A stretch of 64,000 bases of DNA from Paractinoplanes tereljensis (GTDB lineage Bacteria > Actinomycetota > Actinomycetes > Mycobacteriales > Micromonosporaceae), in the NCBI RefSeq assembly GCF_016862435.1, contig NZ_BOMY01000041.1:186001-250000 (forward strand). The letters run 5' to 3'. This document shows, in pieces, positions 42,301-61,992 of this stretch. The translations under genes and the position numbers were made by a program. Below the pieces are notes generated by a model, which was given only the letters and a program-made list of their open reading frames with translations, did no database searches and was not told where the DNA came from. The number at the start of each line of letters is the position of its first letter. The first letter of the stretch is position 1.

Positions 42301-42622
42301 GCCGGAGCTTCGGCAGTTCCCGGTCGAGATGCCGCGGATCGGGGCTGGCCACCGGCACCGCGATCGCGCCGAGCAGCATGCACCCGAAGAAGCCGGCGAC
42401 GAACTCCAGGCCGTCGTCGGGCGGGAAGACCAGCAGGACGCGGTCGCCCGGCTCGACCCCGGCGGCCCGGAGCAGGTCAGCGGCGCCGGCGGCGAGGCGC
42501 ACGACCTCGGCGCAGTCGGCCGCGGCCGTCTGTTTGCCGTGCCGATCGAGGAACGAGTAGAGCGGCGTGTGCGGAGCGACGTCGAGGCGCTCGACCATCC
42601 TGGTGAGCAGGCTCGAGATCAC
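39299..42622 (-). CDS. FAAL-ACP-condensation domain protein (fatty acyl-AMP ligase, carrier, terminal C domain)
   Basis: 1107-aa three-domain protein. Residues about 1-580 are a fatty acyl-AMP ligase: YLQYTSGSTSAPKG near 181-194, NVYGMAEAVLF, RTGDLGVI and KTTSGKLRR. Residues about 600-670 are a carrier domain with phosphopantetheine Ser637 in DAGLDSLGLMDL. Residues about 690-1100 are an NRPS condensation-like domain whose catalytic motif reads NHLVMDG (His802 kept, first His replaced by Asn), with later WFNFQGE. No adenylation or thioesterase domain follows. FAAL activates a free fatty acid as acyl-AMP and loads the ACP; the C domain would pass the acyl group to an amine or alcohol. Start is the GTG at 42622, six bases after a TAAGAT -10 box, so probably leaderless; ATG at 42598 is an alternative. 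Divergent from the Pfa-like operon and coupled to an MFS exporter. Confidence 0.92.
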   Translation of the reverse strand: MISSLLTRMVERLDVAPHTPLYSFLDRHGKQTAAADCAEVVRLAAGAADLLRAAGVEPGDRVLLVFPPDDGLEFVAGFFGCMLLGAIAVPVASPDPRHLDRELPKLRHVVEDSGARFALTHPKYRALARLASVANRLRGRDAPSWPKLSWLLSHRIKRADLPAAAALLTAAASRFGPDDIVYLQYTSGSTSAPKGVMVRHRNLVHNLELIARNTRVDGDSVLVGWVPLFHDMGLAGGILNAMYTGARCVVFSPLTFLTAPRLWLEAIDRYRGTHIAGPNFGYEYVLRGLRDGDAFDLSSLRATLQGGEPMLPATMERFAAETARMGFDPASFVNVYGMAEAVLFISGPVGRKPTLLRGDRVVLDRDGVIVPAAPGAPEVTLVGSGVPDAELGVSVLAVDPETRQPQPPHVVGELWVSSDSVSSGYWGRGDEENAAVFAARLADGDERRFLRTGDLGVIGADGEVFICGRRKDLIIVGGRNIHPQDLEAAVVAADPILRPGSAVAFGVRVGGVERVVVAAEVRKKALEGGESLPLGRAVAAIRAAVAAHSGVQCHEVVLTRPGRLPKTTSGKLRRGECRELWVSGSLRSAALAGPDGPKAEDVTLLQLLQAEVAALLQLADPGEVPVDLPLRDAGLDSLGLMDLAKRIEDRTGTHLSPATVSDGSTLRDLASSLEPAPAGPRGEAVTGDVPFSAAQVDALRLGQWDWWNRAVLLDVHRPLPVERLRRAVSALVSQHDALRLRVRREDGRFAQYYGDFESSFAIETAATGEELLTDQHRRLSLEHGPVLRLLQMEQRLFLTVNHLVMDGVTLGILVDDLDQLCRLDERGEPLVLARTSARFDEFTRWMHDFARGDAAADLGFWRAQLDVPPPTGYDSREHPGLKEKDLRTVRRLLRPDETRELRTVRMDGPPGRRAPIATTLLTALVRTAQRQWDCGPLAVRLSSSGRQTAVHGLDLSRTAGNMHCTFPLAFADSSTQSPGETLTAVAERLTSVPSAGLSFEPLLFLGDEPSGLADAPMPTVWFNFQGEAPARSRSGLFSPREGSLGDMWDPEAGEKQPPLYLECSIVDGATRLDWYYSPGHLGWSGTEIDEWTARFSGELRGLMTDRS

Positions 42623-42684
42623 TACACCATCTTAAATGGACTTCGGCTAACGTAAGACCCGCCTACCGGGGGGAGGTGGTGCTG
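42623..42684. promoter_or_regulatory. 62-base divergent promoter region of FAAL and Pfa-like operons
   Basis: On the reverse strand TAAGAT (42629-42634) lies six bases before the FAAL GTG. On the forward strand TAACGT (42648-42653) is a -10 candidate for the PfaD operon, followed by the Shine-Dalgarno GGGGGGAGG ending at 42676. The two promoters are so close that both operons can share one control site. Confidence 0.6.
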
Positions 42685-44202
42685 GTGATTCTCGACGGGG
42701 TTCGCCGCTTTCGCGAGCCCGTGCACATCGTGCGCGACCGGCCCGGCCAGGAACCCGGGATCGGGTTCGGCGATCACCCACACGCCGAGATGCTCGGCAC
42801 GCTGCCGCCGCTCTATCCCGAGTGGCTCGGCGAGCGGTCCTTCAATCAAACCCACAACGTCCGCTTTCCGTACGTCGCTGGGGAGATGGCCAACGGCATC
42901 GCGACCGTCGCGTCGGTGGTGGCGATGGCCCGCGCGCGGATGCTCGGATTCTTCGGCGCCGCCGGGCTTGCCCTGCCGGCCATCGAGCGGGCCGTGACCG
43001 AGTTGCGCGCCGCCCTGCCCGGCCGGGACAACTGGGGTGTCAACCTCATCCACTCGCCGTCCGAGCCCGGTCACGAGGAACACCTGGTCGATCTGCTGAT
43101 CCGCGCCGCCGTACCCAAGGTCTCGGCTTCTGCCTTTTTGGAATTGACCCCGGCCGTGGTCCGCTGCGCGGTGGCCGGGCTGCGGCCGGAGGGCCGGGCC
43201 CGGCAGCTGTTCGCCAAGGTCTCCCGGCCCGAGGTGGCCGCGCGGTTCCTCTCCCCCGCGCCGCCCGAGATCCTGCGCCGGCTGGTCGAACGCGGGCAGA
43301 TCACCCGGGACGAGGCCGACCTGGCGGCGCGGATGCCACTGGCCGAGGACGTCACGGTCGAGGCGGACAGCGGCGGCCACACCGACAACCGGCCGCTCGC
43401 CGTCGTGCTCCCGGTGATCATGGCGCTACGCGACGAACTGACCCGGCGGTACGGATACGCCCGGCCGATCCGGGTCGGGGCGGCCGGCGGGCTCGGCGAC
43501 CCGGCCGGGGTGGCGGCCGCGTTCGCCGCCGGGGCCGCCTACGTCGTGACCGGCACCATCAACCAGCTCGCCCGCGAGGCCGGGCTGTCCGACGCGGCGA
43601 AGGACCTGCTCGCGCGGGCCGACCTGGCCGACGTCGCGATGGCGCCGGCCGCCGACATGTTCGAGTACGGCATCAAGGTGCAGGTGCTGCGGCGCGGCAC
43701 CATGTTCGCGGCGCGGGCCGGCCAGCTCTACGAGACCTACCTGGCCTACGGGTCCCTCGACGAGGTGCCCGACGCGACCCGCGAGCGGATCGAGAAGGAC
43801 GTCCTGCGCGGCACGTTCGAGGACTGCTGGCAGCAGACCCGGCAGTTCTGGCTCGGCCGGGACCCGCGCGAGGTCGACCGGGCCGAGCGGGACCCGCGCC
43901 ACCGGATGGCCCTGGTGTTCCGCTCCTACCTGGGGTTGTCGAGCCAGTGGGCGATCACCGGGGAGCCGACCCGGGTGACCGATTACCAGATCTGGTGCGG
44001 ACCGGCGATCGGCGCCTTCAACCGGTGGACGGCGGGCAGCCCGCTGGCTCAGCCGGCCCGGCGCACGGTCGTGCAGATCGCCCTCAACCTGCTGGAAGGC
44101 GCGGCCATGGTGACCCGTGCCCATCAGTTGCGCTCGTACGGCGTACCCGTGCCTGGGGAAGGTTTTGCCCCTCGCCCTCGCCTTTTGTCCCTAGGAGCAT
44201 GA
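42685..44202 (+). CDS. pfaD: PfaD-family trans-acting enoyl reductase
   Basis: 505-aa FMN-dependent reductase of the nitronate monooxygenase fold, the enoyl-reductase component of PUFA and some polyketide synthases. Visible marks are PEWLGERSFNQTHNVRFPYVAGEMANGIA at the start, VSASAFLELTPAVVR, the active-site EADSGGHTDNRP, RVGAAGGLGDP for FMN phosphate binding, and the C-terminal QIWCGPAIGAFNRW segment typical of PfaD but absent from plain monooxygenases. It should reduce selected enoyl-ACP intermediates made by the next two proteins. Start is the GTG at 42685 eight bases after the strong GGGGGGAGG. Its TGA overlaps the ATG of the next gene, so the operon is tightly coupled. Confidence 0.93.
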   Translation: MILDGVRRFREPVHIVRDRPGQEPGIGFGDHPHAEMLGTLPPLYPEWLGERSFNQTHNVRFPYVAGEMANGIATVASVVAMARARMLGFFGAAGLALPAIERAVTELRAALPGRDNWGVNLIHSPSEPGHEEHLVDLLIRAAVPKVSASAFLELTPAVVRCAVAGLRPEGRARQLFAKVSRPEVAARFLSPAPPEILRRLVERGQITRDEADLAARMPLAEDVTVEADSGGHTDNRPLAVVLPVIMALRDELTRRYGYARPIRVGAAGGLGDPAGVAAAFAAGAAYVVTGTINQLAREAGLSDAAKDLLARADLADVAMAPAADMFEYGIKVQVLRRGTMFAARAGQLYETYLAYGSLDEVPDATRERIEKDVLRGTFEDCWQQTRQFWLGRDPREVDRAERDPRHRMALVFRSYLGLSSQWAITGEPTRVTDYQIWCGPAIGAFNRWTAGSPLAQPARRTVVQIALNLLEGAAMVTRAHQLRSYGVPVPGEGFAPRPRLLSLGA

Positions 44203-47200
44203 TGGAGCCGATCGCTGTCGTGGGGTTGGCCGCGCTGATGCCCGGGGCGCGCGACACGAGCGAATTCTGGGCCAACATCGTGGCCGGGCGCGATCTGATC
44301 ACCGAGGTGCCGGCCGGGCGCTGGCCCGCCGACGGGTTCTACGACCCCGATCCGGCGACGCCCGACACGACCTACAGCAACCGCGGCGCGTTCCTGCCGG
44401 ACATCGAGTTCGACGCCCTCGCCCACGGACTGCCGCCGGCCACCCTCGGGGCCATCGACCCCGCCCAGCTGCTGGGTCTGACCGTGGCCGACGCGCTGCT
44501 GGCCGACCTCGGCCGCAACCTGGCCGGCCCGCCCGACCGGGAGCGGGTGAGCGTCATCCTGGGCAGCTCCACCCTCAGCCGGGTCGGCACGATGGACGCG
44601 CGCATCCAGCGCCCGGTCTGGCTCGCGGCGTTGCGGGATCTCGGTGTTGGGGATGAAGACGCGCGGCGGATCTGCGACCGGATCGCCGACCGGTACGCAC
44701 CGTGGCAGGAAGATTCCTTCCCCGGCCTGCTGTCCAATGTGGTGGCCGGGCGGATCGCCAACCGGCTCGACCTGCACGGCACCAACTGCACGGTCGACGC
44801 CGCCTGCGCCAGCTCGCTCGCGGCCCTGTCGGCCGGGGTGAACGAGCTGGCCCTGGGCCAGGCCGACCTGGTCATCACCGGCGGGGTGGACGTGACCAAC
44901 AACCCGCTGATGTACGTGTGCTTCAGCAAGACACCGGCCCTGTCCCCCACCGGCGACGCCCGCCCGTTCGCGGCGGACGCCGACGGCACGATGCTCGGCG
45001 AGGGCCTGGCGATGGTGGGCCTCCGGCGCCTGGCGGACGCCGAACGCGACGGCGACCGGGTCTACGCGGTGATCAGAGGGCTCGGCACCTCCTCGGACGG
45101 CCGGGGCGGCGCGATCTACGCGCCGATGGCCAACGGGCAGGTCCGGGCGCTGCGGCGGGCGTACGAGGCGGCGGGCTACGGCCCGGACACCGTCGACCTG
45201 GTCGAGGCGCACGGCACCGCGACCCGGGCCGGGGACGCCGCCGAGTTCGAGTCGCTGCGCCGCGTTTTCGGCGAGACCGGGCGGCCGGACCGTGGCTGGT
45301 GCGCGCTCGGCAGCATCAAGTCCCAGATCGGGCACACCAAGGCCGCGGCGGGCGCGGCCGGGCTGGTCAAGACGGTGCTGGCGCTGCATCAACGGACGCT
45401 GCCGCCGACCATCAAGGTGCGCGAACCCAACCCCGCCCTCGGTATCGAGGGCAGCCCGTTCTACCTGAACACGGTCGCCCGCCCATGGACCCGGCGCGCT
45501 TCGCACGCCCGGCGGGCCGCGGTCTCCAGCTTCGGTTTCGGTGGGGCCAACTTCCATCTAACCCTCGAGGAGTACGGCGGTGCCAACTCGCCCGCGCGAA
45601 TCGGGGCCGGCGAGCTCGTCCTGCGCAGTGCCGGGTCGCCGGCCGATCTGATCGGGAGCGACCACTTCGACGCCGGTGACCCGCATCGGTTGGCCGTGGT
45701 CGACGGCGGCGACCTGCCCGAGAAGCTCGACCGGGCGGCCGAGATGATGGCCCGGCAGCCCGGCGTGCCGTTCACCCTGCCCGGCGGCGTCTCCTACTCG
45801 TGCGGGCCGGCCGATCCCGGCCGGGTCGCGTTCCTGTTCCCCGGGCAGGGTTCGCAGTACGTCGGGATGGGCGGTTCGATCGCCCAGGCCCTGCCGACGG
45901 CGCAGGACGTGTGGGATTTCGTGGCCGGGCCCGATCTGGCCGACGTGGTCTTCCCGCCGCCGGTCTTCGGCGACGAACAGCATGCGGCGCAGGAACGCCG
46001 GCTCACCGACACCCGCTGGGCGCAGCCGGCGCTGGCCGCACACAGCCTGTCGCTGCTCGCGCTGCTCGACTCGATCGGGCTCGCACCCGACTGCGTGGCC
46101 GGTCACAGCCTCGGCGAGCTGGTCGCGCTGCACGCGGCCGGCGTCCTGGACGCGACGAGCCTGCTGCGCCTGGCCCGGCACCGGGGTTCGCTGCTGGCCG
46201 ACGCCTCCGTGTCGCCGGGCGCGATGCTCGCGGTCGACGCGGAGGCGGCCGTGGTGGAGGCGGCGCTCAAGGGCGACGTCTGGATCGCGAACCGGAACGC
46301 ACCCCGCCAGACCGTCGTCTCCGGAACCGCTACGGCGATCGACGCGCTGGAAGAGCGACTATCCGCGGACGGCGTCACCGCCCGCCGGCTGGCGGTATCC
46401 GCCGCCTTCCACAGCCCGATGATGCGGTCGGCCGAGGTGCCGATGCACGACTTCTTGGCGACGCTCTCCCTGGCCGCACCGCGCATCGACGTGTATGCGA
46501 ACGAGGACGCCGCGATCTACGACCCATCGCCCGCCGCGATTCGCCGCGCTCTGGCGCGGCACCCCGGCGTCCCGGTGCGGTTCCAGGACCAGATCGAAGC
46601 GATGTACGCCGCCGGAGCCCGAACGTTCGTCGAGGTGGGTCCCGGCGCCGTGCTGACCGGCCTGGTCGGACGGATTCTCGGCGACCGGCCGCACTTGGCG
46701 GTCAGCCTGGACCGTCGCGGCCGGGACGGCGTTGCCGCGTTCCACGAGGGCGTCGGCCGGCTGGCCGTGCACGGCGTCGCAATGACCCTGCCACCGACCG
46801 AGAAGCCGGCGCCGACCGAGCGGCCCCGAATGCCGGTCCGCGTCAACGGCACAGGCTACGTCGCACCGCCGGCGCCGGCGCCGGCGCCGAGCTTGCCCGC
46901 CACCGCGCAGACCCTGCCGACCCCCGCCCAGCCGGCCCTGCCCACCTTCGCGCGGACCCTGCCCGCCTCCGCCCAAACCCTGCCCGCGCAGACCCCGGCC
47001 GCCTCCACCCCGCCAACCCATTTGGAGCCCGTCGCCCCGATGACCAAGCCAGAGCACAACGCCGATTGGCTGGCCGCAATGCAGGAGATGCAGCGCCAGA
47101 CGGCCGAGGCGCACATGCATTTCCAGCGCACTCTCGCCGAGTCGCACCAGGCCTTCTTGCAGATGGCCGAGAACACGTTCGCCGCCTTCGCCGGACAAAC

Positions 47201-50015
47201 CCCGCGAAAGGACCAGCTGCCTCGGCCGGCCCAGCCACCTCTCACGCCAACGGTTTCCGCGTTCGCGCCCCTGGCGCCTGCGCCTGCCGCGCCCGCACCC
47301 CTCACGCCCGCACCCCTTGCGGCAGCGCCGATCCAACCCTCACCCCTCGCGCCCACGCCCCCTCCAGCAGCGCCGAACCAACCCGCGCCCTCCGCGGCTG
47401 CGCCGACCCAAGCCGTGCCCATTGCGGCCGTGCCCATTGCGGCATCGGAGCTTCACCAGCCCGTGGCCGCGCCGGTGGCCCCGGCCGCGCGGGTCACTGA
47501 GCCGGTGAGCCTGACGCTTCTGCTGGCCGTGGTCGCGGACAAGACCGGCTATCCGGCGGACATGCTGAACGGCGGCATGGATCTGGAGGCGGACCTCGGC
47601 ATCGACTCGATCAAGAAGGTGGAGATCTTCGCGGCGGTCCGGGAGCGCGCGGAAGGGCTGCCCGACACCGACTCGGCCCAGATGGCCCAGCTGTTCCAGG
47701 CGCGCACGCTGGACGAGGTCATGCGCGGCATCACCGCCGAACCGAACCTTCCCGGCCTGCCTCGATTACAGGTCCAGCCGGTCGCCGCGCCGGCATGCGG
47801 GCTGACTCTGGCCGGCCTCCGGGACGGACCGATCACCGTCGTCGACGGCGGCAGCGCGCTCGCGCCCGCCGTGGTCGAGCAGCTTCGCGCGCACGGCATC
47901 ACAGCGACCGCCGCGGACCTGCCCGCCAGCGACGCGCACGGCGCCATCCAGCCCGACGGGGACGCACACGGCGTCCCCCTGCTCGGCGGCGACGTACACG
48001 GCGTCATCCTGCTCGGCGGCATGGCACCGGCCGCGGACGCCCGGCGCGGGTTCCAGGCCGCTCGGGTCGTCGCGGCCGCGATGACCGAACGCGGCGGTGT
48101 CTTCGTCACCGTGCAGGACACCGGCGGCTGTTTCGGGCTGGCCGAACCGAAGCCGGCTGCGAAGGAGACCGAGACCGACCTCGGCGGTCCGCAACGCGCC
48201 TGGCTCGGCGGCTTCGCGGCACTCACCCGGACCGCCGCCCAGGAGTGGCCGGCGGCCGCGGCCAAGGCGATCGACTGCGAGCGCGGCGGCCGCGGCCCGG
48301 ACGAGGTGGCCGCCGCCATCGTCACCGAGCTGCTGACCGGCGGGCCGACCCTCGACGTCGGCCTGCGCGCGGACGGAACGCGATGGACATTGACGGAAAT
48401 CGAGGCACCGCCGGATCCGTCCGACCCGCGGATCACCGACCGGTCGGTCCTCGTAGTCAGCGGCGGCGCCCGCGGTGTCACCGCGGCCGCGCTGCTGGCG
48501 CTGGCGGCCGAAGGCAAGCCACGAATGCTGCTGCTCGGGCGCACCGAGCTCGCCGACGAGCCCGAGTTCCTCGCGGCAGCCCACGACGAGCCGTCCCTCA
48601 CCCGCCTGCTGGCCAACCACGAGCCGGCCGCCACGCCGGCCCAGCTGACCGCTCGGGCGCGGGTCGTCCTTGCCGTCCGGGAGGTGCGTGCGACGCTCGC
48701 CGGGCTCGAACGGGCCGGGGCAACCGTGCGCTATGCGGCCGTCGACGTCACCGACCGGGCCGCCCTGGACCGCGAGCTGGCCCGGGTGCGCCGCGAATGG
48801 GGTGCGGTCACCGGGCTCGTGCACGGCGCCGGAGTGCTCGCCGACAAACGGATCGCCGACAAGACCGACGACCAGTTCGACCGGGTCTACGCCACCAAGG
48901 TTGCCGGGCTCCACGCGCTGCTCGACGCGACCGCCGACGATCCGCTCGACGTACTGTGCCTGTTCTCGTCCGTCGCGGCCCGCTTCGGCAATCCCGGACA
49001 GTGCGACTACGCGATGGCCAACGAGGTACTCAACCAGGTGGCCCTGGCCGAGCAGCGGCGGCGGCCGGCCTGCCGGGTCCGGGCGATCGGCTGGGGACCG
49101 TGGGAGGCCGGCATGGTCACCCCGGCCCACGCCGCGCACTTCCGAGACCTAAAAATCCCGCTCATCCCGCTCGACGCGGGCGCACGCGCCTTCGTCGCGG
49201 AGTTGAGCACGCCCGGCGACGTGGTCCAGGTGCTCATCACCGGCGGCGAGACCGCCGAAGCGGGCCGGCCGCGGCTCCGGGCCGAAGCCCGTACGGATGA
49301 TTTCCTGACCGACCACGCCCCGGCCGGTGTGCCCGTGCTTCCGCTGGCCATGGCGGTGGAATGGTTCGCGGCGGCCGGGCAGGCGCGCTACCCGGGCCGT
49401 CCGACCGCGTTGGGCGGCCTCCGGGTTCTCCACCGGATCGAACTGCCCGACCTGGCCAACGGCGGTCACCGGTTCACGATCGAGGTAACTCCGGCCGACG
49501 AACTGCGGCTCGGGAACCACTACCGCGCCCGGCTCGCCGCCCCGGAACGCCCACGCACCTGGAGCACGCCGACCGCGCTGGAACCCTTCAACGGATCGGT
49601 CTACGACTCCGACGTGCTGTTCCACGGTCCCCGGTTCCAGATGCTGCGAGAGGTGCGAGGGCTGTCCCGCGAGGGCGCCGAAGCGCAGGTCGTCGGAGTG
49701 CGGGCAGTCGGCTGGCCAGACGCTCCCTGGTGGTCGGACCCGGCCGCGGTCGACGGCGCCCTGCAGACCGCGGTGCTGTGGGCCCGGCACACCACCGGCC
49801 ACGCGACCCTGCCGATGGGCGTCGAGGCGATCCACGTTCACCGCCCCGGACCGGCGCCGGCGACGCTGCGCTGCCTGGTCCGGGCCACCTCGGTCGCCAC
49901 CGACGAGACACGCTGCGACATCGCGCTGTTCGACGGGGACGGGGAGATCCGCACCGAACTGCTCGGCGTCAGCCTCATCCGGCGCCCCGACGTCGCGCCG
50001 GCGGGTCGCCGGTGA
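44202..50015 (+). CDS. PfaA-like iterative synthase: KS-AT-ACP-KR-DH with a single ACP
   Basis: 1937-aa multidomain enzyme. Ketosynthase (1-460) with Cys202 in DAACASS, EAHGTAT and SQIGHTKAAAG; malonyl-type acyltransferase (about 540-840) with Ser636 in GHSLGE and AAFHSP; a Pro/Ala-rich linker; one ACP with Ser1136 in LGIDSIKKVEI, the PUFA-synthase ACP signature; ketoreductase (about 1400-1640) with GGARGVT and FSSVAARFGNPGQCDYAMANE; and a C-terminal PKS-type dehydratase with HAPAGVPVLP (His1705) and DGALQTAVLW. Pfa synthases normally carry several tandem ACPs; here there is one. ATGs at 44199 and 44202 are adjacent after AGGAG; either overlaps the PfaD stop. Its TGA overlaps the GTG of the next gene. 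Makes an acyl chain from malonyl units with the partner proteins; product unknown. Confidence 0.93.
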   Translation: MEPIAVVGLAALMPGARDTSEFWANIVAGRDLITEVPAGRWPADGFYDPDPATPDTTYSNRGAFLPDIEFDALAHGLPPATLGAIDPAQLLGLTVADALLADLGRNLAGPPDRERVSVILGSSTLSRVGTMDARIQRPVWLAALRDLGVGDEDARRICDRIADRYAPWQEDSFPGLLSNVVAGRIANRLDLHGTNCTVDAACASSLAALSAGVNELALGQADLVITGGVDVTNNPLMYVCFSKTPALSPTGDARPFAADADGTMLGEGLAMVGLRRLADAERDGDRVYAVIRGLGTSSDGRGGAIYAPMANGQVRALRRAYEAAGYGPDTVDLVEAHGTATRAGDAAEFESLRRVFGETGRPDRGWCALGSIKSQIGHTKAAAGAAGLVKTVLALHQRTLPPTIKVREPNPALGIEGSPFYLNTVARPWTRRASHARRAAVSSFGFGGANFHLTLEEYGGANSPARIGAGELVLRSAGSPADLIGSDHFDAGDPHRLAVVDGGDLPEKLDRAAEMMARQPGVPFTLPGGVSYSCGPADPGRVAFLFPGQGSQYVGMGGSIAQALPTAQDVWDFVAGPDLADVVFPPPVFGDEQHAAQERRLTDTRWAQPALAAHSLSLLALLDSIGLAPDCVAGHSLGELVALHAAGVLDATSLLRLARHRGSLLADASVSPGAMLAVDAEAAVVEAALKGDVWIANRNAPRQTVVSGTATAIDALEERLSADGVTARRLAVSAAFHSPMMRSAEVPMHDFLATLSLAAPRIDVYANEDAAIYDPSPAAIRRALARHPGVPVRFQDQIEAMYAAGARTFVEVGPGAVLTGLVGRILGDRPHLAVSLDRRGRDGVAAFHEGVGRLAVHGVAMTLPPTEKPAPTERPRMPVRVNGTGYVAPPAPAPAPSLPATAQTLPTPAQPALPTFARTLPASAQTLPAQTPAASTPPTHLEPVAPMTKPEHNADWLAAMQEMQRQTAEAHMHFQRTLAESHQAFLQMAENTFAAFAGQTPRKDQLPRPAQPPLTPTVSAFAPLAPAPAAPAPLTPAPLAAAPIQPSPLAPTPPPAAPNQPAPSAAAPTQAVPIAAVPIAASELHQPVAAPVAPAARVTEPVSLTLLLAVVADKTGYPADMLNGGMDLEADLGIDSIKKVEIFAAVRERAEGLPDTDSAQMAQLFQARTLDEVMRGITAEPNLPGLPRLQVQPVAAPACGLTLAGLRDGPITVVDGGSALAPAVVEQLRAHGITATAADLPASDAHGAIQPDGDAHGVPLLGGDVHGVILLGGMAPAADARRGFQAARVVAAAMTERGGVFVTVQDTGGCFGLAEPKPAAKETETDLGGPQRAWLGGFAALTRTAAQEWPAAAAKAIDCERGGRGPDEVAAAIVTELLTGGPTLDVGLRADGTRWTLTEIEAPPDPSDPRITDRSVLVVSGGARGVTAAALLALAAEGKPRMLLLGRTELADEPEFLAAAHDEPSLTRLLANHEPAATPAQLTARARVVLAVREVRATLAGLERAGATVRYAAVDVTDRAALDRELARVRREWGAVTGLVHGAGVLADKRIADKTDDQFDRVYATKVAGLHALLDATADDPLDVLCLFSSVAARFGNPGQCDYAMANEVLNQVALAEQRRRPACRVRAIGWGPWEAGMVTPAHAAHFRDLKIPLIPLDAGARAFVAELSTPGDVVQVLITGGETAEAGRPRLRAEARTDDFLTDHAPAGVPVLPLAMAVEWFAAAGQARYPGRPTALGGLRVLHRIELPDLANGGHRFTIEVTPADELRLGNHYRARLAAPERPRTWSTPTALEPFNGSVYDSDVLFHGPRFQMLREVRGLSREGAEAQVVGVRAVGWPDAPWWSDPAAVDGALQTAVLWARHTTGHATLPMGVEAIHVHRPGPAPATLRCLVRATSVATDETRCDIALFDGDGEIRTELLGVSLIRRPDVAPAGRR

Positions 50016-53000
50016 CCGAGCCGATCGCCATCGTGGGCCGCGGCTGCGTGCTGCCCGGCGCGCTGAGCCCCGACCAATTCTGGGACAACATCAAGAAAGG
50101 CCAGATCAACCTCGATGCCGTACGGCCTGAGGAGTGGCGAATGCCGCCGGGCTCACTCCCGGCCGGCACGACGGCCGGCCTGGTCCGAGGCTTCGCCGAC
50201 GTCTTCGATCCGGACGGCTTCACCGCCGAGGCCGGGGCCGTCACCGCGTACGATCCGGCTCTGCAATGGGTTTTGCATGCCGGCCGGACCGCCCTGCGCG
50301 AGGCCGGCGAGCACGCGAGCCCGGCCCGCACCGGCCTGATCCTCGGCAACCTGGGTTACCCCAGCCGGAGCCTGGCCGCGTACGCCGAACGAATCTGGCT
50401 GGACGGCCATCCCGGCGGCCTGGACCCGCGGTCCCGTTTTTGCTCCGGCCTCTGGGCGCACACCGCGGCGAACGCCCTAGGTCTTACCGGCGGTTCGTTC
50501 GCCCTCGACGCGGCCTGCGCCTCCGCGCTGTACGCCATCAAGATCGCCTGCGACCGCCTGCACGACGGCCGGGCCGACCTCATGCTGGCCGGTGCGGTGA
50601 GCGGCTGCGACGGCCTGATCATCGACTCCGGCTTCGCCGCGCTCGGCGCACTGAGCCCGTCCGGCCGCAGCCGCCCGTTGCAGCGCGGCGCCGACGGCCT
50701 GATCCCCGCCGAGGGCGCGGCCCTGCTCGCGTTCATGCGCCTGCCCGACGCGGTGGCCGCGCACGTGCCGGTCCTCGGCGTCATCCGAGGCATCGGCCTG
50801 TCGAACGACGGCCGAACCGGCGGCTTCCTGGTCCCCGCGGAGGGCGGCCAGATCCGGGCCATGGACGCCGCATACCGCGCGGCGGGCTTCACCCCGGACA
50901 CGGTGGAACTACTGGAATGCCACGCCACAGGTACGCCGGTAGGCGACGCCGTGGAGGCCCGCTCAACCGCCCGCTTCTTCGGCGACCGACCCGCGCCCTT
51001 GCCGATCGGCTCAGCCAAGTCAAACGTAGGCCACCTGCTGACCGCCTCCGGCGCAGCCGGCCTGCTGAAGCTCCTGAGCGCGATCGAGCACGGCACCCTC
51101 CCGGCCACGGCCGGCGCCACCGACCCCATCGACGACCTACGCGACGCCCCGCTGCGCCTGCTCCAATCCAGCGAACCGTGGCCGAGCGGGCGACGGCGGG
51201 CGGCGATAAGCGCGTTCGGCTTCGGCGGCAACAACGCCCACCTGATCGTCGAGGCCTACGACGACCACCCCGCAACGAGCATCGCGATGCCCAGCGCGCC
51301 CACCCCGGCCCCGAACTCGGCCCCGGATTCGGCCTCAGACCCAGACCCGACGCCGGCCACAGACCTGGACCCGGCCTCGGATTCGGCCCCGGACCCGGAC
51401 CCGGGCTTGGGCTCGGACCCGGCCTCGGACTTGGTCTCGGACCCGGCCCCTGATTCGGCGGAGGCCGCGATCGCGATCGTCGCGATTGGCACTCGCGTCG
51501 GGGATGTGGACGCGGGTGGGCTCCGGGACGCCGTTCTCAGCGGGCGGGTGCCGGGCGAGGCGCCGGACACCGTCGAGGTCGCGCTCGACGACCTGCGCTA
51601 CCCGCCGCGCGACCTTGGCGAGACGCTGGGCCAGCAGCTCCTCGTGCTGGAGGCCGCCCGGGAAGCGGTGCGCGGCATCGCGCTTCCGCCGGAGCGCACG
51701 GCCGTCCTGATGGGCATGGGATGCGACCCCGAGATCGCGCGGGCTCACGCCCGCCGGCGGCTTGAGGCCGCCGGCCAGGCCGGCGACGAGTTCAGCCCGG
51801 CGCTCACCGCCGCCCGCGTGCTGGGCGCCATGGCGAACATCGTGGCCAACCGCATCGGCGGCCAACTCGGACTGTCCGGACCGGGCTTCGCCGTCAGCGC
51901 CGAAGAGGCCTCCGGAATCATGGCGCTGGAGTTGGCGGCACGGGCCCTCCGAACCGGCGAGATCGACGCCGCGCTGGTCGGCGCGGTCGACCTGGCCGAC
52001 GAACCCGTGCATCGCACCGCCCTCGCCCAGCTCGGCCGAACCGCGAAGCCGACCGACGCGGCCATCGTCCTGGTACTCAAACGCCACGACGACGCCCAAC
52101 GCGACGGCGACCCCATCATTGCCTTGCTCGACCGCGACGCTCAGAGCAATCGCGACGGCGACGACGACGCCCAACACAACCAGAGCGCCCAACCCGCCCG
52201 CGGCGCGCGGAACGACCGCGACGCCCAGCACAACCGGGGCGCTCAGAGCGACCGCGACGCGCTGAATGACCGTGACGCTCAGGGTGACTGGCACGGCCTT
52301 GTCGACGGGGAAACGCTGGGCGCGGACGCGGGCTGGCTGTTGCCGAGTGGGCTGTTTGGGTTGCCGCATGCTGCTGTTGGGCTGCTTGACGTTGCGGTTG
52401 CGGCGCTGGCGCTGCGGCATCGGGTTCGGCCCCGGGCGGGGCTGCCCGCTCGGCCGGACCTCGGTGCTACGACCGTGGACGTCGTCACGTCGGTGCTCGG
52501 GGCTGCGCCCGTTCGGGTTCGGCTTCGGGCCGGTGACGCCGCGCCTTGGGCGCCTGGGCCCCTCGCCCGGCTGCACCTCTACTCGGGCGCGGACCGGGCG
52601 GGTGTGCTCGTCGCTGCCCGGGACGGCGTCGAGAGCGACACGGGGCCGGCTCGCCTTGCTGTCCTCGCCCGCGATTCGGGGCACCTCGCCGATCAGCTGG
52701 CGCGTGCTCGTGCCTGGCTTGGCGGCGAGGCGCTGCGGCCGGCCGGGGTGGCCTTCCGGGAGAGTCCGATCGGTGGTGAGACGGCGTTCGTCTATCCGAT
52801 GAGCTCGTCGTTCTACCCGGGGATGGGCGCCGACCTCGCGCTCGCGTTCGCGCCGATCGCCGCCGCCGCGGACGGGGCTTCGCTGGTGTCCTGGCTGTAC
52901 AAAGCGCAAACCGAACGGCCCGAGCCTCTGGACGAGATCCTCGCGGTCGGCTTCCTCTCCGGCTTGCAGACGAGGATCTCGCGCACGGTGCTGGGCATCG

Positions 53001-56000
53001 AGCCGCAGGCCGCGATCGGGTACTCCTCCGGGGAATCGGCCGCGCTCGTCGCCCTGGGGGCCTGGACCGACGGGGCGGCCATGGCCGCTGACGCCCGGGC
53101 CGACGGGCTGTTCACCCACGATCTGAGTGGCGAGCTGCGGGCGGTTCGGCGGTTCTGGGAACGGCGCGGGATCGACGGCGAGCGGTGGATCGGCTATCTG
53201 CTCGCGGCCGACCCGGAAGTGGTGCGGGCCATGGTCAAGGACGAGCCGGCCGTACACCTGTCGGCGGTTTGTGCTCCCGGAGCGTGCGTGGTCTCCGGGG
53301 AAGAGCGGGCCTGTACCGCTTTCGCCGAAGGGTTCGAGCGGATCCGGCTTCAGCTGCTGGTGGCGCACGTTCCCGAGGTGGCCGAGGTGCGTGACCGCTG
53401 GCACGCCCTGCACCGGCGGCCCACGGCCGGCGTGCCCGGCGTGCGGTTCTATCGAGGCGCGACCGGCGACTGGTACCACCCGACCGAGGAGTCGGCCGCC
53501 GACGCGATCACCGAGCAGATGCTCGCGCCGGTCAACTTCCCCAACCTGATCGAGCGTGCCTGGCAGGACGGGGTCCGGGTCTTCATCGAGCACGGACCGG
53601 CTGCCCAGTGCACCGGCTGGATCCGCCGCATCCTCGGCGACCGGGAGCACGTCGCGGTGGCGCTGGACGCCGTACCGGGTCAGGGTTTGTGGTCGTTGTC
53701 GGTGGCGGTCGCGGAGCTGGCCGCAGCCGGCGTCCCGGTGCGGCCCGACGCGCTGGCGGCCTACTTCGCGACGCCGGCGCCCGCCGGCCCTGGCGCCGGC
53801 ATCACCATCGACCTGCCCAAACGGCTGCCCGCCCCGGTGCTGACCGAACCGGCCGGAGAGTACGAGGTGATGGCGCCCGCCCCGGATCTCACGCGGATGC
53901 CGGCCTCGGCCGCGCCCGCGGCCCAGACCGTGCACGAAGTGGACGAGGCCGCCCAGGCCGTGGACGAAATCGCCGCCCCCGCCCCCGCGCGGTCGCCGGA
54001 ACCGGCCGCCTCGCCGGCTCTGGCCTGGTATGCCGCCATCACCGCCGCACACCACCAATACTTGGAGCTGCAGGCTGCCGCGCACCGGCAATTCCTGAGC
54101 GGCCGCTCCGCCGCCGTCGCCGCGATCACCCCGGCAGCAAACCCAACCGCCGCGATCGCCCCGGCGGCCAGCCCAATCGCCGCGATCACCCCGGTCGACG
54201 ACGGGTGGCCCGGGCCGAAATTTGGCCGTGCGCAACTCGAACACCTCGCGTCGGGACGGATCTCCGAGGTGTTCGGGCCCGTGTTCGCGGCGCAGGATGA
54301 CGACGTGCGGCAGACCCGGATGCCGCGGCCACCCCTGCTGCTGGCCGATCGGGTCCTCGGGATCGATGCCGCGCCGGGCGCGATGGGCACCGGCGTCATC
54401 TGGACCGAGACCGACGTACAGGCTGATTCCTGGTACCTCGACCAGGCCGGGCGGATGCCCGCCGGGCTCGTCGTCGAGGCCGGGCAGGCCGACCTGCTGC
54501 TGATCAGCTGGCTCGGCGCTGACCTGCACAACCGGGGTGAGCGGGTCTACCGCCTGCTCGGCAGCGACGTCACGTTCCACGGCCCGCCGCCGGGGCCCGG
54601 CCAGACCCTCCGCTTCGAGATCCGGATCGTCCGGCACGTCGCGCACGGCCCGATCCGCCTCTTCTTCTTCGAGTACGACTGCCACGTGGGCGACGCGTTA
54701 CTGCTGACGGTCCGGGACGGCCAGGCGGGATTCTTCACCGACGAGGAGCTGAGCCGTACGGGTGGAGTGCTCTGGGAGGCAAAAGCCGACCGGCCGGCCG
54801 GGGCCGTGCGGTCCTTCGATGCCGCCGCGGTCGCGGCCTTCGCGGAGGGCCGCCCCGACGAGTGTTTCGGCCCGAAGTGGGCGGTAACCCGCGCGCACGT
54901 GCGCACCCCGCGCATCGGCTCGGGCCGGCTGCGCCTGCTCGACGAGGTGCCGGTCCTCGATCCGGCCGGCTACCTCCGGGCCGAGACGGCGGTCCGCCCG
55001 GACGACTGGTTCTTCGACGGCCACTTCCACAACGACCCCTGCATGCCCGGCACCCTGATGTCGGAGGGCTGCCTGCAGGCGGTCTCGTTCTACCTGGCCG
55101 CCGCCGGTCACACGATCGACCGCGACGGCTGGCGGTTCGAACCGGTGCCGGGACGCGTCGCGCGGATGCGCTGCCGGGGCCAGGTCACTCCGGACAGTCG
55201 GCGGCTGACCTACGAGGTCTTCGTCACCGAGATGTCGGCCGACCCGTTCCCGACCGTGGTCGCGGACGTGCTGGTCACCGTCGACGGCGTGAAGGCCCTG
55301 CACGTCGCGGATTGCGCGGTGCGGCTGGTGCCGGACTGGCCGCTCGAACACTGGCGGCATCTCGGACCGCCCACCGTGCAGCAAACCGAGCAGCCCGTGC
55401 CGCTCCCGGCGCTGGGCGGGCTCGCCGGGCACCACGAAACCCAGCCGGTGGCGTGGATCGGGGATCTGCCGCTCGGCTACGCCTCGTTGCTGGCCTGCGC
55501 CTGGGGCCGGCCGACCGACGGGCTCGGGCCGATGGCCGAGGCGTTCACCGGCAGCCGCCGAGGACCACGGCTGCCCGGGCCGCCGTACCACTTCATCAGC
55601 CGGATCGTCGCGGTCGACGGCCCGTACCAGGGCATGGCGGTCGGCAGTGCGGTTGTCGCGGAGTACGACGTACCGGATGAGGCCTGGTTTTTCGAAGGCG
55701 CGGCCGCCGCCCTGATGGAGATCGCCCTGCAGCCCTGCGGATGGCTGGGTTGTTATGTCGGCAGCCCGGTGCAGATCGACGCCGAGCTGCTGTTCCGCAA
55801 CCTCGACGGCGACCTGCGGGTCCATCGCGCGGTGCGGCCGGCCAACCGCGTCGTGCGCACCCGCGCCGAGATCACCAACATCTCCCGGGCCGCCGGAATG
55901 ATCATCGAGACGTTCCGGATCGAGTGCCAGGTGGACGGTGAGCTGCTGCTGAGCGGCACCGCCGTCTTCGGCTATTTCCTGACCACGGCCTTCGCGCAGC

Positions 56001-56464
56001 AGCCCGGTCTGCCACCGACCGCAGCCGAGCGCGAGCCGGTGACCGAGGTGCGCGAAAACCCTCCGGCAATGGGCCCGATGCTCACGATGCTCGACCGGAT
56101 CACCGGATATTCACCCGCTGGCGGGGCAGCCGGCCTCGGCCGGTTGCGCGCCGAGAAGGACATCGACCCGGGCGACTGGTATTTCAAGGCCCACTTCTTC
56201 CAGGACCCGGTCATGCCCGGCTCGCTCGGCGTCGAGGCGATGACTCAGCTGCTGCGGTGGTACCTGGGCGAGCCGGTTGCTCTCGAGACGGCGCTGACCT
56301 GGACATATCGCGGCCAGGTGGTGCCCACCGACCGGCTGCTCACGGTCGAGGTGGAAATTCTCGAGATCAAGGACCGGAGCGTGTACGCCCGGGGCTGGCT
56401 CTGGATCGACGGCCGCCGGATCTATCGCGTCGACCGGCTCGGGGTCCGACTTGACGGCCAGTGA
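50012..56464 (+). CDS. PfaC/PfaB-like synthase: KS-CLF-AT-DH-DH
   Basis: 2150-aa protein. First KS (1-420) is intact: Cys169 in DAACASAL, ECHATGT and KSNVGHL. The second KS-like domain (about 490-720) is a chain-length factor: the Cys motif is replaced by SAEEASG near residue 631. Next is an acyltransferase (about 920-1250) with Ser1005 in GYSSGE, corresponding to PfaB. The C-terminus has four hot-dog units forming two FabA-like dehydratases; catalytic His1671 (GHFHNDPCMPG) and His2061 (AHFFQDPVMPG) are in units two and four, the first and third being degenerate as in PfaC. There is no ACP and no ER. Two hydrophilic low-complexity linkers interrupt the CLF area. GTG start overlaps the previous stop (GTGA). 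Confidence 0.92.
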   Translation: MTEPIAIVGRGCVLPGALSPDQFWDNIKKGQINLDAVRPEEWRMPPGSLPAGTTAGLVRGFADVFDPDGFTAEAGAVTAYDPALQWVLHAGRTALREAGEHASPARTGLILGNLGYPSRSLAAYAERIWLDGHPGGLDPRSRFCSGLWAHTAANALGLTGGSFALDAACASALYAIKIACDRLHDGRADLMLAGAVSGCDGLIIDSGFAALGALSPSGRSRPLQRGADGLIPAEGAALLAFMRLPDAVAAHVPVLGVIRGIGLSNDGRTGGFLVPAEGGQIRAMDAAYRAAGFTPDTVELLECHATGTPVGDAVEARSTARFFGDRPAPLPIGSAKSNVGHLLTASGAAGLLKLLSAIEHGTLPATAGATDPIDDLRDAPLRLLQSSEPWPSGRRRAAISAFGFGGNNAHLIVEAYDDHPATSIAMPSAPTPAPNSAPDSASDPDPTPATDLDPASDSAPDPDPGLGSDPASDLVSDPAPDSAEAAIAIVAIGTRVGDVDAGGLRDAVLSGRVPGEAPDTVEVALDDLRYPPRDLGETLGQQLLVLEAAREAVRGIALPPERTAVLMGMGCDPEIARAHARRRLEAAGQAGDEFSPALTAARVLGAMANIVANRIGGQLGLSGPGFAVSAEEASGIMALELAARALRTGEIDAALVGAVDLADEPVHRTALAQLGRTAKPTDAAIVLVLKRHDDAQRDGDPIIALLDRDAQSNRDGDDDAQHNQSAQPARGARNDRDAQHNRGAQSDRDALNDRDAQGDWHGLVDGETLGADAGWLLPSGLFGLPHAAVGLLDVAVAALALRHRVRPRAGLPARPDLGATTVDVVTSVLGAAPVRVRLRAGDAAPWAPGPLARLHLYSGADRAGVLVAARDGVESDTGPARLAVLARDSGHLADQLARARAWLGGEALRPAGVAFRESPIGGETAFVYPMSSSFYPGMGADLALAFAPIAAAADGASLVSWLYKAQTERPEPLDEILAVGFLSGLQTRISRTVLGIEPQAAIGYSSGESAALVALGAWTDGAAMAADARADGLFTHDLSGELRAVRRFWERRGIDGERWIGYLLAADPEVVRAMVKDEPAVHLSAVCAPGACVVSGEERACTAFAEGFERIRLQLLVAHVPEVAEVRDRWHALHRRPTAGVPGVRFYRGATGDWYHPTEESAADAITEQMLAPVNFPNLIERAWQDGVRVFIEHGPAAQCTGWIRRILGDREHVAVALDAVPGQGLWSLSVAVAELAAAGVPVRPDALAAYFATPAPAGPGAGITIDLPKRLPAPVLTEPAGEYEVMAPAPDLTRMPASAAPAAQTVHEVDEAAQAVDEIAAPAPARSPEPAASPALAWYAAITAAHHQYLELQAAAHRQFLSGRSAAVAAITPAANPTAAIAPAASPIAAITPVDDGWPGPKFGRAQLEHLASGRISEVFGPVFAAQDDDVRQTRMPRPPLLLADRVLGIDAAPGAMGTGVIWTETDVQADSWYLDQAGRMPAGLVVEAGQADLLLISWLGADLHNRGERVYRLLGSDVTFHGPPPGPGQTLRFEIRIVRHVAHGPIRLFFFEYDCHVGDALLLTVRDGQAGFFTDEELSRTGGVLWEAKADRPAGAVRSFDAAAVAAFAEGRPDECFGPKWAVTRAHVRTPRIGSGRLRLLDEVPVLDPAGYLRAETAVRPDDWFFDGHFHNDPCMPGTLMSEGCLQAVSFYLAAAGHTIDRDGWRFEPVPGRVARMRCRGQVTPDSRRLTYEVFVTEMSADPFPTVVADVLVTVDGVKALHVADCAVRLVPDWPLEHWRHLGPPTVQQTEQPVPLPALGGLAGHHETQPVAWIGDLPLGYASLLACAWGRPTDGLGPMAEAFTGSRRGPRLPGPPYHFISRIVAVDGPYQGMAVGSAVVAEYDVPDEAWFFEGAAAALMEIALQPCGWLGCYVGSPVQIDAELLFRNLDGDLRVHRAVRPANRVVRTRAEITNISRAAGMIIETFRIECQVDGELLLSGTAVFGYFLTTAFAQQPGLPPTAAEREPVTEVRENPPAMGPMLTMLDRITGYSPAGGAAGLGRLRAEKDIDPGDWYFKAHFFQDPVMPGSLGVEAMTQLLRWYLGEPVALETALTWTYRGQVVPTDRLLTVEVEILEIKDRSVYARGWLWIDGRRIYRVDRLGVRLDGQ
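51280..51470 (+). repeat. Asp/Pro/Ser/Ala-rich repetitive linker between KS and CLF
   Basis: The encoded stretch is made of short repeats such as SAPDSASDPDP, DLDPASDSAPDPDPG and SDPASDLVSDPAPDS with near-identical codons (gcctcggacc type units). It separates the active KS from the chain-length-factor domain and probably acts as a flexible acidic linker. Confidence 0.7.
52090..52305 (+). repeat. DRDAQ-type imperfect repeats inside the CLF region
   Basis: About six to eight units built on N-D-R-D-A-Q (RDAQSNRDGD, NDRDAQHNRGAQSDRDALNDRDAQGD). The following 250 bases use TTG, TTT, GTT and GGG codons more than the rest of the operon, so this segment looks like a repeat expansion or insertion in the gene. 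Confidence 0.7.
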
Positions 56465-56485: not shown

Positions 56486-57523
<1,038 letters not shown>

Positions 57524-57535
57524 GCGGAGCGAGCA

Positions 57536-59095
57536 ATGACCCACAGCTTCCTGTTCCGCGGGACCAGGCAGGCCTATCACGTGGCCGGCACCGGCCCGAT
57601 GCTTGTCGCGCACTCCGGCGGGCCCGGTGTCGACTACTCCTACCTGCGCTCGCCGGCCCTCGAAGAGCACTTCACCGTGGTCTACCCGGAACCGGTCGGC
57701 ACCGGCGACTCCCGGCCGCTGCCCGCCGGTGCGACGTACGTGGACACCTACGTCGACTTCCTGGCCGCCCTGGTCGAGCACCTGGGCGTGCCGCGGGTGC
57801 ACCTGCTCGGCCACTCGCACGGCGGCATCGTCACGCAGCGGTTCGCGGTCCGGTATCCCGAGCGGGTCGCCGGCCTCGCCCTGTACAGCTCGACGCCGGT
57901 CATGAACGCGGAGTTCTGGGCGGCCGCCCGGGCCGAGGCGGCCGCGTACCCGGGCCGGAATCCCGGGGTACCGGAGGCGGTCGCGGTGTGGGAGGCCTTC
58001 GACAGCGCCGAACCCGAGCGCACCGACGAGGAGATGACCGCCGGTCTGCGGGCCATCCTGCCGGTCTACTTCGCCGACTTCTGGGGGCGGCGCGCGGAGT
58101 TCGAGCCGCTCCGGGAAGACCTTCGGTGCTGGCTCGTCAACTTCGCCTCGACCGTCGTCGACACCCGGCCCGACCTGGGCGCGATCACCGCCCCGACGGT
58201 GGTGATCTGCGGGCGGCACGACTTCGCCTGCGGCCCGGTCTGGGCCGGGATGCTGCACGACGGCATCACCGGCTCGCGCCTGGCGATGCTGGAAAACAGC
58301 GGCCACTTCGGGCATCTGGAGGAGCCGGAACGGTTTGTTGAGGCGGTGCGCGGGCTGATCGGCCGGAGCTTCGCCGAAGAAATCAGAGCGACCTTCCGTA
58401 ACGGCGACGACGCGGCGGTGACCCGGATGGCGCGGGCCGAGATCGACCGGGCCCGGGCCGCCGGGGAGCCGGCCGGGGAGGTCGAGGGGCTGTACGCGAT
58501 CGCCCGGGTCGCGTTACGTGCCAACGATCTGCCCCGGGCCGAGGATCTCGCCTCAGCCGCCCTCGACGTCGCGGTGAAGTCGGGTGACCGGCGCCTGGAG
58601 GAGCGTCCGCGGCACGTGCTGGCCGCGGTGGCCCGGCTGTCCGGCGACCACGCCGAGGCGCGCATCCGCTACCTGGCCAGTATCGAGCTGAACGAGCTTC
58701 TCGGGCAGCCCGAGCTGGTCAACGCGGAGTACCACAACCTGGCCTTCACCGAGCTGCACCTGGGCCACCTCGACCGGGCCCGGGAACTGTTCGCCGAGGG
58801 GCGCGAGCGAGTGTTCGCCCACGGCTACCGGGACTTCCTGCCGTACCTCGGGGTGGCCGCCGCCGCGATGGCCTCGGCCGACGGTGACCACCGGCGCGCG
58901 GCCCGGATGGCCGGCTTCACCGACAGCGCCTACGCCACCATCACCCAGGTGCCCGACCCGGACGACGCCGCGGAACTGGCGAACGTACGGGCGGCGGCCA
59001 CGGTCGCGCTGGGCGAGTCGGAATACGCCCACGAGTACGCGGCCGGCGCCGTCCTGGACACGTACGGCGCCTTCGGCCTGGAGTGGCGCAATTAG
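57536..59095 (+). CDS. Alpha/beta hydrolase fused to a TPR-like helical domain
   Basis: 519-aa protein. Residues about 1-285 form an alpha/beta hydrolase of the proline iminopeptidase-like group: oxyanion-hole AHSGGPGVDY, nucleophile Ser94 in GHSHGG, acid Asp in CGRHDFACG and catalytic His in NSGHFGHLEEP. Residues about 300-519 are an all-helical TPR-like region (ALRANDLPRAEDLASAALDVA, FTELHLGHLDRARELFAEGR) similar to the C-terminal halves of STAND regulators. Fusion of these parts in one chain is uncommon. GGAG lies before the ATG, 12 bases after the ilvC stop, so it is likely cotranscribed with ilvC. It could act as a thioesterase or hydrolase for the pathway; no direct evidence. The stop overlaps the convergent SARP gene by four bases. 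Confidence 0.82.
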   Translation: MTHSFLFRGTRQAYHVAGTGPMLVAHSGGPGVDYSYLRSPALEEHFTVVYPEPVGTGDSRPLPAGATYVDTYVDFLAALVEHLGVPRVHLLGHSHGGIVTQRFAVRYPERVAGLALYSSTPVMNAEFWAAARAEAAAYPGRNPGVPEAVAVWEAFDSAEPERTDEEMTAGLRAILPVYFADFWGRRAEFEPLREDLRCWLVNFASTVVDTRPDLGAITAPTVVICGRHDFACGPVWAGMLHDGITGSRLAMLENSGHFGHLEEPERFVEAVRGLIGRSFAEEIRATFRNGDDAAVTRMARAEIDRARAAGEPAGEVEGLYAIARVALRANDLPRAEDLASAALDVAVKSGDRRLEERPRHVLAAVARLSGDHAEARIRYLASIELNELLGQPELVNAEYHNLAFTELHLGHLDRARELFAEGRERVFAHGYRDFLPYLGVAAAAMASADGDHRRAARMAGFTDSAYATITQVPDPDDAAELANVRAAATVALGESEYAHEYAAGAVLDTYGAFGLEWRN

Positions 59096-61920: not shown

Positions 61921-61992
61921 CGGTGAGTTGATCGCTCGACGGTAGTAAGCCGTAGTGAAGGACTTGTGGAATACGACTGAATCGGGAGACAG

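Follow-up and report, generated by a model that had tools for sequence, protein, structure and literature searches.

The 64,000-nucleotide stretch of DNA from the soil actinomycete Paractinoplanes tereljensis analyzed here (the window; contig NZ_BOMY01000041.1, positions 186,001 to 250,000) carries an intact operon for a secondary-lipid synthase of the polyunsaturated fatty acid (PUFA) synthase type, in a genome of the Actinoplanes/Paractinoplanes group. Three genes in the same direction, pfaD, pfaA and pfaC, fill positions 42676 to 56464, with overlaps of 1 to 4 bases at both junctions. Their layout is already known; a single acyl carrier protein (ACP) domain and the lack of an AGPAT domain make the operon a variant of it. 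In the reading that we consider probable, a PUFA-type synthase of the Pfa1-Pfa2-Pfa3 (pfaBC-fusion) layout hands its chain to a conjugating enzyme encoded next to it, composed of a fatty acyl-AMP ligase (FAAL), a carrier (PCP) and a condensation (C) domain and referred to as FAAL-PCP-C.

PfaD reached 622.5 bits against TIGR02814 (curated cut-off, 449.25) and PfaA reached 1167 bits against TIGR02813 (curated cut-off, 1010.1), so both proteins pass their family models. Together with the 173 KS-encoding relatives found among the scanned stretches, these scores exclude a chance match. All Pfa-type parts were present with their catalytic motifs: ketosynthase (KS), chain length factor (CLF), malonyl-type and further acyltransferase (MAT and AT), ketoreductase (KR), dehydratase/isomerase (DH/I), ACP and enoyl reductase (ER), the last recognized by its family model only. 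The genes and domains are as follows (PKS, polyketide synthase).

42676-44202, plus strand: PfaD (Pfa1), stand-alone enoyl reductase; TIGR02814 pfaD_fam, NMO domain PF03060
44199-50015, plus strand: PfaA (Pfa2), KS-AT-ACP-KR-PKS-type DH, 1938 aa; TIGR02813, Pfam domains
44202-45596, plus strand: KS1 of PfaA, residues 2-460; Pfam; active Cys in DAACAS, 44796-44813
45825-46706, plus strand: AT1 of PfaA, residues 543-836; Pfam, NCBIfam; malonyl-type motif GHSLG at 46101
47496-47723, plus strand: ACP of PfaA, residues 1100-1175; clade ACP profile; LGIDSIKK, 47595-47618
48450-49106, plus strand: KR of PfaA, residues 1418-1636; PF08659, 1.6e-37; YAMAN at 49008
49284-49997, plus strand: PKS-type DH (DH1) of PfaA, residues 1696-1933; PF14765, 54.8 bits, above cut-off
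50012-56464, plus strand: PfaC (Pfa3), fused PfaBC, KS-CLF-AT-DH-DH, 2150 aa; Pfam, NCBIfam, alignment
50018-51265, plus strand: KS2 of PfaC, residues about 3-423; Pfam; DAACAS at 50507
51461-52591, plus strand (approximate bounds): CLF of PfaC; second PF00109 (ketoacyl-synt) stretch, clade alignment
52739-53638, plus strand: AT2 of PfaC, residues about 910-1209; weak Pfam AT match, TIGR02816, alignment; GYSSG at 53018
54449-56452, plus strand (approximate bounds): FabA-type DH block with DH2, a pseudo-DH and DH3; PF07977 in three stretches, alignment

The start of pfaD is uncertain, as there are several GTG codons, some downstream of 42676; an initial annotation of the sequence took 42685. 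The pfaA gene starts at ATG 44199, in an ATGA overlap with pfaD, or at the adjacent ATG 44202, and pfaC starts at GTG 50012, in a GTGA overlap with pfaA. Counted from ATG 44199, the PfaA motifs lie at residues 200 (DAACAS), 635 (GHSLGE), 1133 (LGIDSIKK), 1604 (YAMAN) and 1706 (HxxxGxxxxP), which gives Cys203, Ser637, Ser1137 and His1706 as catalytic residues. GHSxG has been described as the MAT-type motif (PMC12895367). DH1 carries HxxxGxxxxP at 49314 and DGALQ at 49752, and its score against PF21089 was 23.6 bits, below the cut-off of 27. In PfaC, the active His residues of the FabA-type block lie at 55022 and 56192, and in the CLF, Glu replaces Cys in AEEASG at 51890, a Glu common to the aligned actinobacterial relatives.

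Much of the initial annotation was borne out by this analysis, including the PUFA-synthase-like operon with junction overlaps of 4 bases or fewer, the replaced CLF Cys, the AT inside the PfaC-like subunit (AT2, between the CLF and the DH block) and the PfaC residues Cys169, Ser1005, His1671 and His2061, numbered exactly. The PfaA residues are likewise present, but their numbering was one too low; it fits a count from ATG 44202, and the offset arises because the two ATGs are adjacent.

A known layout with one carrier domain

The initial annotation held that known Pfa systems have a separate PfaB or an AT before the ER. Published layouts contradict this. Shulse and Allen (2011) distinguished 20 types, with fused pfaBC proteins and pfaD-first clusters in actinobacteria (PMC3098273). 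Their Type D has a fused pfaBC with the order KS-CLF-AT-DH2, as in the window, and differs by its split pfaA (PMC3098273). In Aetherobacter and Minicystis rosea, which make C20-C22 PUFAs, Pfa1-3 are composed of ER, KS-MAT-ACP-KR-PS-DH and KS-CLF-AT-DH-DH' plus AGPAT (PMC8436480; PMC6731297). Because these types and layouts were already published, we ruled out a novel gene or domain layout.

The window shares with the myxobacterial systems (M. rosea, Aetherobacter) the order ER, PfaA, PfaC, the position of AT2 between CLF and DH, the PKS-type DH that ends PfaA and the two FabA-type DH domains. When expressed in yeast, the M. rosea cluster yielded arachidonic acid/docosatetraenoic acid (AA/DTA)-type PUFAs, and the DH domains have a strong effect on the product (PMC6731297). 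Three DH sites had been taken as a mark of an unusual product; since they are the normal set for the Pfa1-Pfa2-Pfa3 layout, they are no such sign.

M. rosea differs in having three ACPs, against one in the window, and an AGPAT and DH4 at the end of PfaC, against neither. In its Pfa3, the FabA block is followed by weak PKS-type DH matches and a PF01553 acyltransferase domain, whereas PfaC of the window stops after DH3: no AGPAT (PF01553) was found at its C-terminus by Pfam scan, and no second PKS-type DH in PfaC by Pfam scan and alignment. Because PfaC ends there, the DH set resembles, by description, the published one of A. fasciculatus, without DH4 (PMC6731297). With the myxobacterial C-terminal AGPAT absent, the synthase itself would not load its chain on glycerol phosphate. 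The window also differs from M. rosea and Aetherobacter in its FAAL-PCP-C neighbor; neither this gene nor the lack of an AGPAT was covered by the initial annotation.

Other described systems resemble the window in part. Type L of the 2011 survey, whose members include Sorangium, Plesiocystis and S. coelicolor, has pfaD first and a fused pfaBC, with the order given in the text as KS-CLF-DH2-AT rather than KS-CLF-AT-DH-DH; PUFA production by S. coelicolor was stated as not demonstrated (PMC3098273). The marine eicosapentaenoic and docosahexaenoic acid (EPA/DHA) systems PfaA-E (Types A and B) have the same kinds of domains and the PfaB-like AT motif, and differ, by description, in their separate pfaB and in the 4 to 6 ACPs of Type A (PMC3098273).

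The KS tree had 106 rows, was built by a quick method with SH-aLRT support only, contained long branches and held no S. coelicolor, heterocyst or zeamine KS. KS1 fell in a 10-row actinobacterial clade (SH-aLRT 100) within a 79-row clade (97) that includes M. rosea and the Type L members Sorangium and Plesiocystis. A KS phylogeny had been proposed as a check on whether the operon belongs to a characterized family: the broad clade does contain Minicystis and Sorangium, but the window lies in a separate, uncharacterized sub-clade. Among the best 80 loci, the closest relatives of the KS were nine actinobacterial loci with 80 to 92% identity, followed after a gap by loci at 66%; a KS with 67% identity occurs in one further genome of the order. 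When up to 16 candidates per genome were scored, a window-type KS (at least 90% identity) was present in 3 of the 67 genomes of the genus, namely P. tereljensis itself, P. toevensis and P. rishiriensis. A transfer of pfa from actinobacteria to myxobacteria is favored in the M. rosea paper (PMC8436480). Our literature search found no paper joining PfaD and Actinoplanes.

The genome has a second Pfa-type cluster (G000:C55; L086:5368-17099, minus strand), which encodes a fused ER-KS-AT-ACP2-KR protein (2359 aa) and a KS-AT-DH-PPTase protein (1605 aa; PPTase, phosphopantetheinyl transferase). It sits in a separate KS clade with 12 rows of the genus, its own included. In Mycobacterium ahvazicum (L140:3881-12174), a Pfa cluster is followed by an AMP-binding ligase and a PKS above the cut-off of a Pks2-type model.

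The synthase of the window has one ACP. Pfam gave one PF00550 stretch of 20.5 bits, just below the cut-off of 20.8. A profile made from ACPs of the group and run with filters off had a single match in PfaA and revealed no further ACP in PfaA or PfaC, so the single carrier reported initially withstood a search for hidden copies. With the same profile, one ACP was counted in all nine countable PfaA proteins of the actinobacterial clade, whose ACPs were themselves the seeds of the profile. These were the proteins of the window, P. toevensis, P. rishiriensis, A. ishikariensis, A. hainanensis, A. iriomotensis (truncated at the contig end), a Streptosporangiaceae metagenome-assembled genome (MAG; L010), Actinocrispum and Rugosimonospora (gene in two parts on separate contigs); L009 was excluded, as its contig stops short of the ACP. 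M. rosea had three ACPs, Sorangium four and M. ahvazicum one clear ACP.

For a wider count, we took 77 loci with a PfaA-type KS frame and dropped the 26 that are open at a contig end. The 51 closed frames contained one ACP (13 frames), two (14), three (7), four (7), five (3), six (1) or none (6, all short, 980 to 1227 aa). Six of the 13 single-ACP frames belong to the window's clade; M. ahvazicum and two short frames are among the remaining seven. In counts from short-read assemblies, collapsed tandem repeats could be hidden. Judged from these sequences, one ACP is a steady trait of the window's actinobacterial clade and is not unique to it. In a Streptosporangiaceae MAG (L133:661-10961), a PKS that ends in a thioester reductase is encoded, along with two halogenase-like flavoproteins, upstream of a single-ACP pfa cluster.

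Multiple tandem ACPs, which the window synthase lacks, were a distinguishing trait in the 2011 survey, which nevertheless admitted single-ACP clusters (PMC3098273). In tested synthases, the number of ACPs altered the yield and not the product profile (PMC5067506). One ACP alone therefore does not predict the non-standard product that had been suggested. A further carrier domain does lie next door to the operon, in FAAL-PCP-C.

The FAAL-PCP-C neighbor and its companions

Two genes upstream of the operon, on the opposite strand, complete the conserved locus.

39299-42622, minus strand: FAAL-PCP-C, with fatty acyl-AMP ligase, carrier (GLDSLG) and condensation (NHLVMDG) domains; Pfam, NCBIfam, structure relatives, alignment
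37947-39482 (start could be 39302), minus strand: DHA2-family major facilitator superfamily (MFS) efflux permease, possibly for product export; TIGR00711, 257 bits (cut-off, 230.2)

The FAAL-PCP-C gene is divergent from pfaD. By Pfam alone the protein would be an amino-acid nonribosomal peptide synthetase (NRPS) with the order A-PCP-C; this assignment was rejected, as its closest specific models and top solved structures are FAALs. The top solved relative of the C part is PvdL. All 5 aligned FAAL-PCP-C proteins retain the carrier Ser as well as the His and Asp of the C domain, with NHLVMDA in Asanoa. An open reading frame on the plus strand at 39989-42655 was discarded as a gene, together with one at 59083-61914: neither has a Pfam match, and the opposite strands encode FAAL-PCP-C and an AfsR-type regulator.

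We compared the locus with those of relatives, in which genes were called by codon usage. FAAL-PCP-C is also divergent beside pfaD in P. toevensis (85%) and P. rishiriensis (74%), lies on the opposite side of the pfa operon in two Asanoa species (72 to 74%) and is on another contig than pfa, together with DUF3419, in A. iriomotensis. The block of MFS, FAAL-PCP-C, PfaD, PfaA and PfaC is preserved between the window and P. toevensis, where the permease is 91% identical and in the same position, while the genes that directly flank the block differ on either side.

In P. rishiriensis and Asanoa, four more genes accompany FAAL-PCP-C. A protein scan of A. ishikariensis identified them as DUF3419, a methyltransferase, an alpha/beta hydrolase and a 569-aa PEMT-domain protein; in the other genomes they were assigned by similarity. 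DUF3419 has been linked to betaine-lipid synthase (PMC10685587), and aminocarboxypropyl transfer by BtaA has been described (PMC10491745). Strong DUF3419 matches occurred in 4 of 12 distinct genomes, all of them cluster-bearing relatives, with a weak partial match in Rugosimonospora and none in the window's genome. Of the 6 carriers of FAAL-PCP-C plus pfa that we saw, 4 have a BtaA-type aminocarboxypropyl transferase, methyltransferases and a hydrolase. The arrangement is like the BtaA/BtaB betaine-lipid pathway in that DUF3419 and a methyltransferase adjoin FAAL-PCP-C in P. rishiriensis and Asanoa; it differs in that the relatives combine these genes with FAAL-PCP-C and a PUFA-type synthase, and in that the genome of the window has no DUF3419. 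A literature search on PUFA synthases returned no paper that also treats betaine lipids or FAALs. Another genome of the genus (G045, L166:9288-16709), in which the genes were identified by their similarity to Asanoa, has FAAL-PCP-C together with DUF3419, methyltransferase, hydrolase and PEMT-like genes and no window-type pfa.

It is conceivable, if doubtful, that the single-ACP synthase evolved as the acyl supplier of a FAAL-PCP-C conjugating line in the Actinoplanes group and Asanoa, giving undescribed polyunsaturated acyl-homoserine or betaine-type lipids, and that the window and P. toevensis carry a shortened version with a different acceptor and exporter. Downstream of the operon, an alpha/beta hydrolase-TPR protein (57536-59095) shows a similarity of only about 27 to 31% to the hydrolases of the cassette in P. 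rishiriensis and Asanoa and may be remotely linked to them.

The nearest functional parallel that we saw is with the mycobacterial clade IV hybrid clusters, which combine pfa-like genes with a coenzyme A (CoA) ligase, PKS, NRPS and an ICMT-like gene (PMC13291983). Both have Pfa-type genes near an acyl-activating ligase and condensation chemistry, and the ICMT-like gene has a counterpart of another kind in the PEMT-like gene of the window's relatives. In contrast to the NRPS and PKS modules of the mycobacteria, the window has a single FAAL-PCP-C without an amino-acid A domain. The 2026 survey that described these clusters, devoted to hybrid PKS-NRPS-PUFA-like clusters, required PKS and NRPS genes together, a pair that the window locus lacks, and its main text, as far as available to us, makes no mention of Actinoplanes, Asanoa or FAAL (PMC13291983).

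Of the other flanking genes, the ketol-acid reductoisomerase gene directly behind pfaC (56516-57523) is a second copy in the genome; we rejected it as a cluster member, as it has no counterpart at the relatives' loci. An AfsR/SARP-type regulator (59092-62382, minus strand; Trans_reg_C-BTAD-NB-ARC-TPR) is a possible cluster regulator; its similarity to regulators close to the clusters in P. toevensis and A. ishikariensis is only 32 to 34%. A 2117-aa RHS-repeat protein (28056-34409) is about 90% identical to one that likewise lies upstream of the cluster in P. toevensis.

Proposed route and alternatives

In the proposed route, AT1 would admit malonyl units, and chains would grow on the single ACP through KS1 and the KS2-CLF pair. 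KR and PfaD would carry out the reductions, and the one PKS-type and two FabA-type DH sites would dehydrate or isomerize, leading to a long polyunsaturated acyl chain. AT2 would then take the finished chain off the ACP. FAAL-PCP-C would most likely pick it up, as the free acid through AMP or by relay, its C domain would join it to an amine or alcohol acceptor, and the MFS pump would export the product.

The role of AT2 is suggested by its active-site motif. The Ser of GYSSG and a candidate His align with AT2 of M. rosea, which also has GYSSG, and the Tyr before the Ser is conserved in bacterial PfaB, the reported terminal acyltransferase for long chains (PMC12895367). Because of this PfaB-like GYSxG motif, AT2 may be the terminal acyltransferase of the synthase. 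A GASWGE motif that seemed to mark an AT2 in Sorangium proved to be a false pattern match; the alignment shows no AT2 there, and S. cellulosum has been reported without one.

Several observations weigh against the route through AT2 and FAAL-PCP-C. AT2 scored 65.5 bits against TIGR02816 (pfaB_fam), below the cut-off of 144.3, and the residues around its aligned His, VAHV, depart from the published motif III of bacterial PfaB, [NT]A[IM]H[ST] (PMC12895367); for both reasons we call it PfaB-like and no more. The closest specific NCBIfam models of the FAAL part are fatty acyl-AMP ligases, none of them above its cut-off. The usual C-domain motif is HHxxxDG, and the C domain has Asn at the first His. 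The window has no evident gene for the supply of an acceptor. Beside the operon, no PPTase gene was recognized; three PPTase places lie elsewhere in the genome, one of them the PPTase fused in the second Pfa-type cluster. To our knowledge, no product is known for any member of the window's KS sub-clade.

The distribution of FAAL-PCP-C points the same way. Of the 67 genomes of the genus, 15 carry it, and a window-type pfa KS is present in only 3 of these 15; at the same threshold, FAAL-PCP-C was found in 1 of 394 genomes sampled from the class (two candidates per genome), that one being P. tereljensis itself. Of the 12 carriers without window-type pfa, 7 were inspected: one has the BtaA-type cassette, and none of the remaining cassette genes occurs in the stretches retrieved for the other six (two near contig ends). 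Because 12 of 15 carriers in the genus lack window-type pfa and one has the cassette only, FAAL-PCP-C appears from its occurrence to be a module in its own right, seemingly combined with the PUFA synthase, and the idea of a pfa-specific enzyme is weakened. Conversely, Rugosimonospora, Actinocrispum and the Streptosporangiaceae MAG, which have pfa, contain no close FAAL-PCP-C (best matches, 37 to 41% identity, with 63 candidates scored per genome).

These distributions also favor the alternative that survives best, though we think it rather unlikely: the same synthase would make a plain membrane PUFA, passed to CoA or lipids by AT2 and housekeeping acyltransferases, with FAAL-PCP-C as an unrelated neighbor. 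It fits, in addition, the report that PfaB sets the final PUFA in marine bacteria (PMC12895367). Drift alone is hard to credit, however, for a gene that lies beside pfaD in three Actinoplanes-group genomes and on the other side in two Asanoa. Still less probable is a non-PUFA product, a reduced or partly hydroxylated polyketide lipid such as those of heterocyst glycolipid, zeamine-type or enediyne-type synthases. There are precedents in which Pfa-like synthases were recruited to make specialized lipids, those of the zeamine type among them (PMC13291983), but the DH, KR, KS and CLF domains of the window carry the expected motifs, and the KS is nearest the Minicystis/Sorangium type (about 65% identity to M. 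rosea), against 39 to 41% for enediyne-labelled plasmid rows among the 25 of 66 records listed. A silent or decaying cluster without a product would account for the patchy occurrence (3 of 67 genomes of the genus) and for the expanded repeats of PfaC, in the linker between KS and CLF (51304-51459) and within the CLF (52133-52282), which aligned relatives lack, but is hardly credible with frames open across 13.8 kb, conserved motifs and 4-base overlaps kept.

The operon offers a natural test of whether a PUFA synthase can manage with one ACP, and of what takes the place of AGPAT in a synthase that lacks a built-in offloading domain. Because the system is shared by named strains (P. toevensis, P. 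rishiriensis and Asanoa species), the question of the product can be settled. Within the locus, the greatest interest attaches to the FAAL-PCP-C partner. If its link to the synthase is true, it would extend the specialized lipids surveyed in 2026 (PMC13291983) by a route from PUFA to conjugate, perhaps with a connection to betaine-lipid chemistry.

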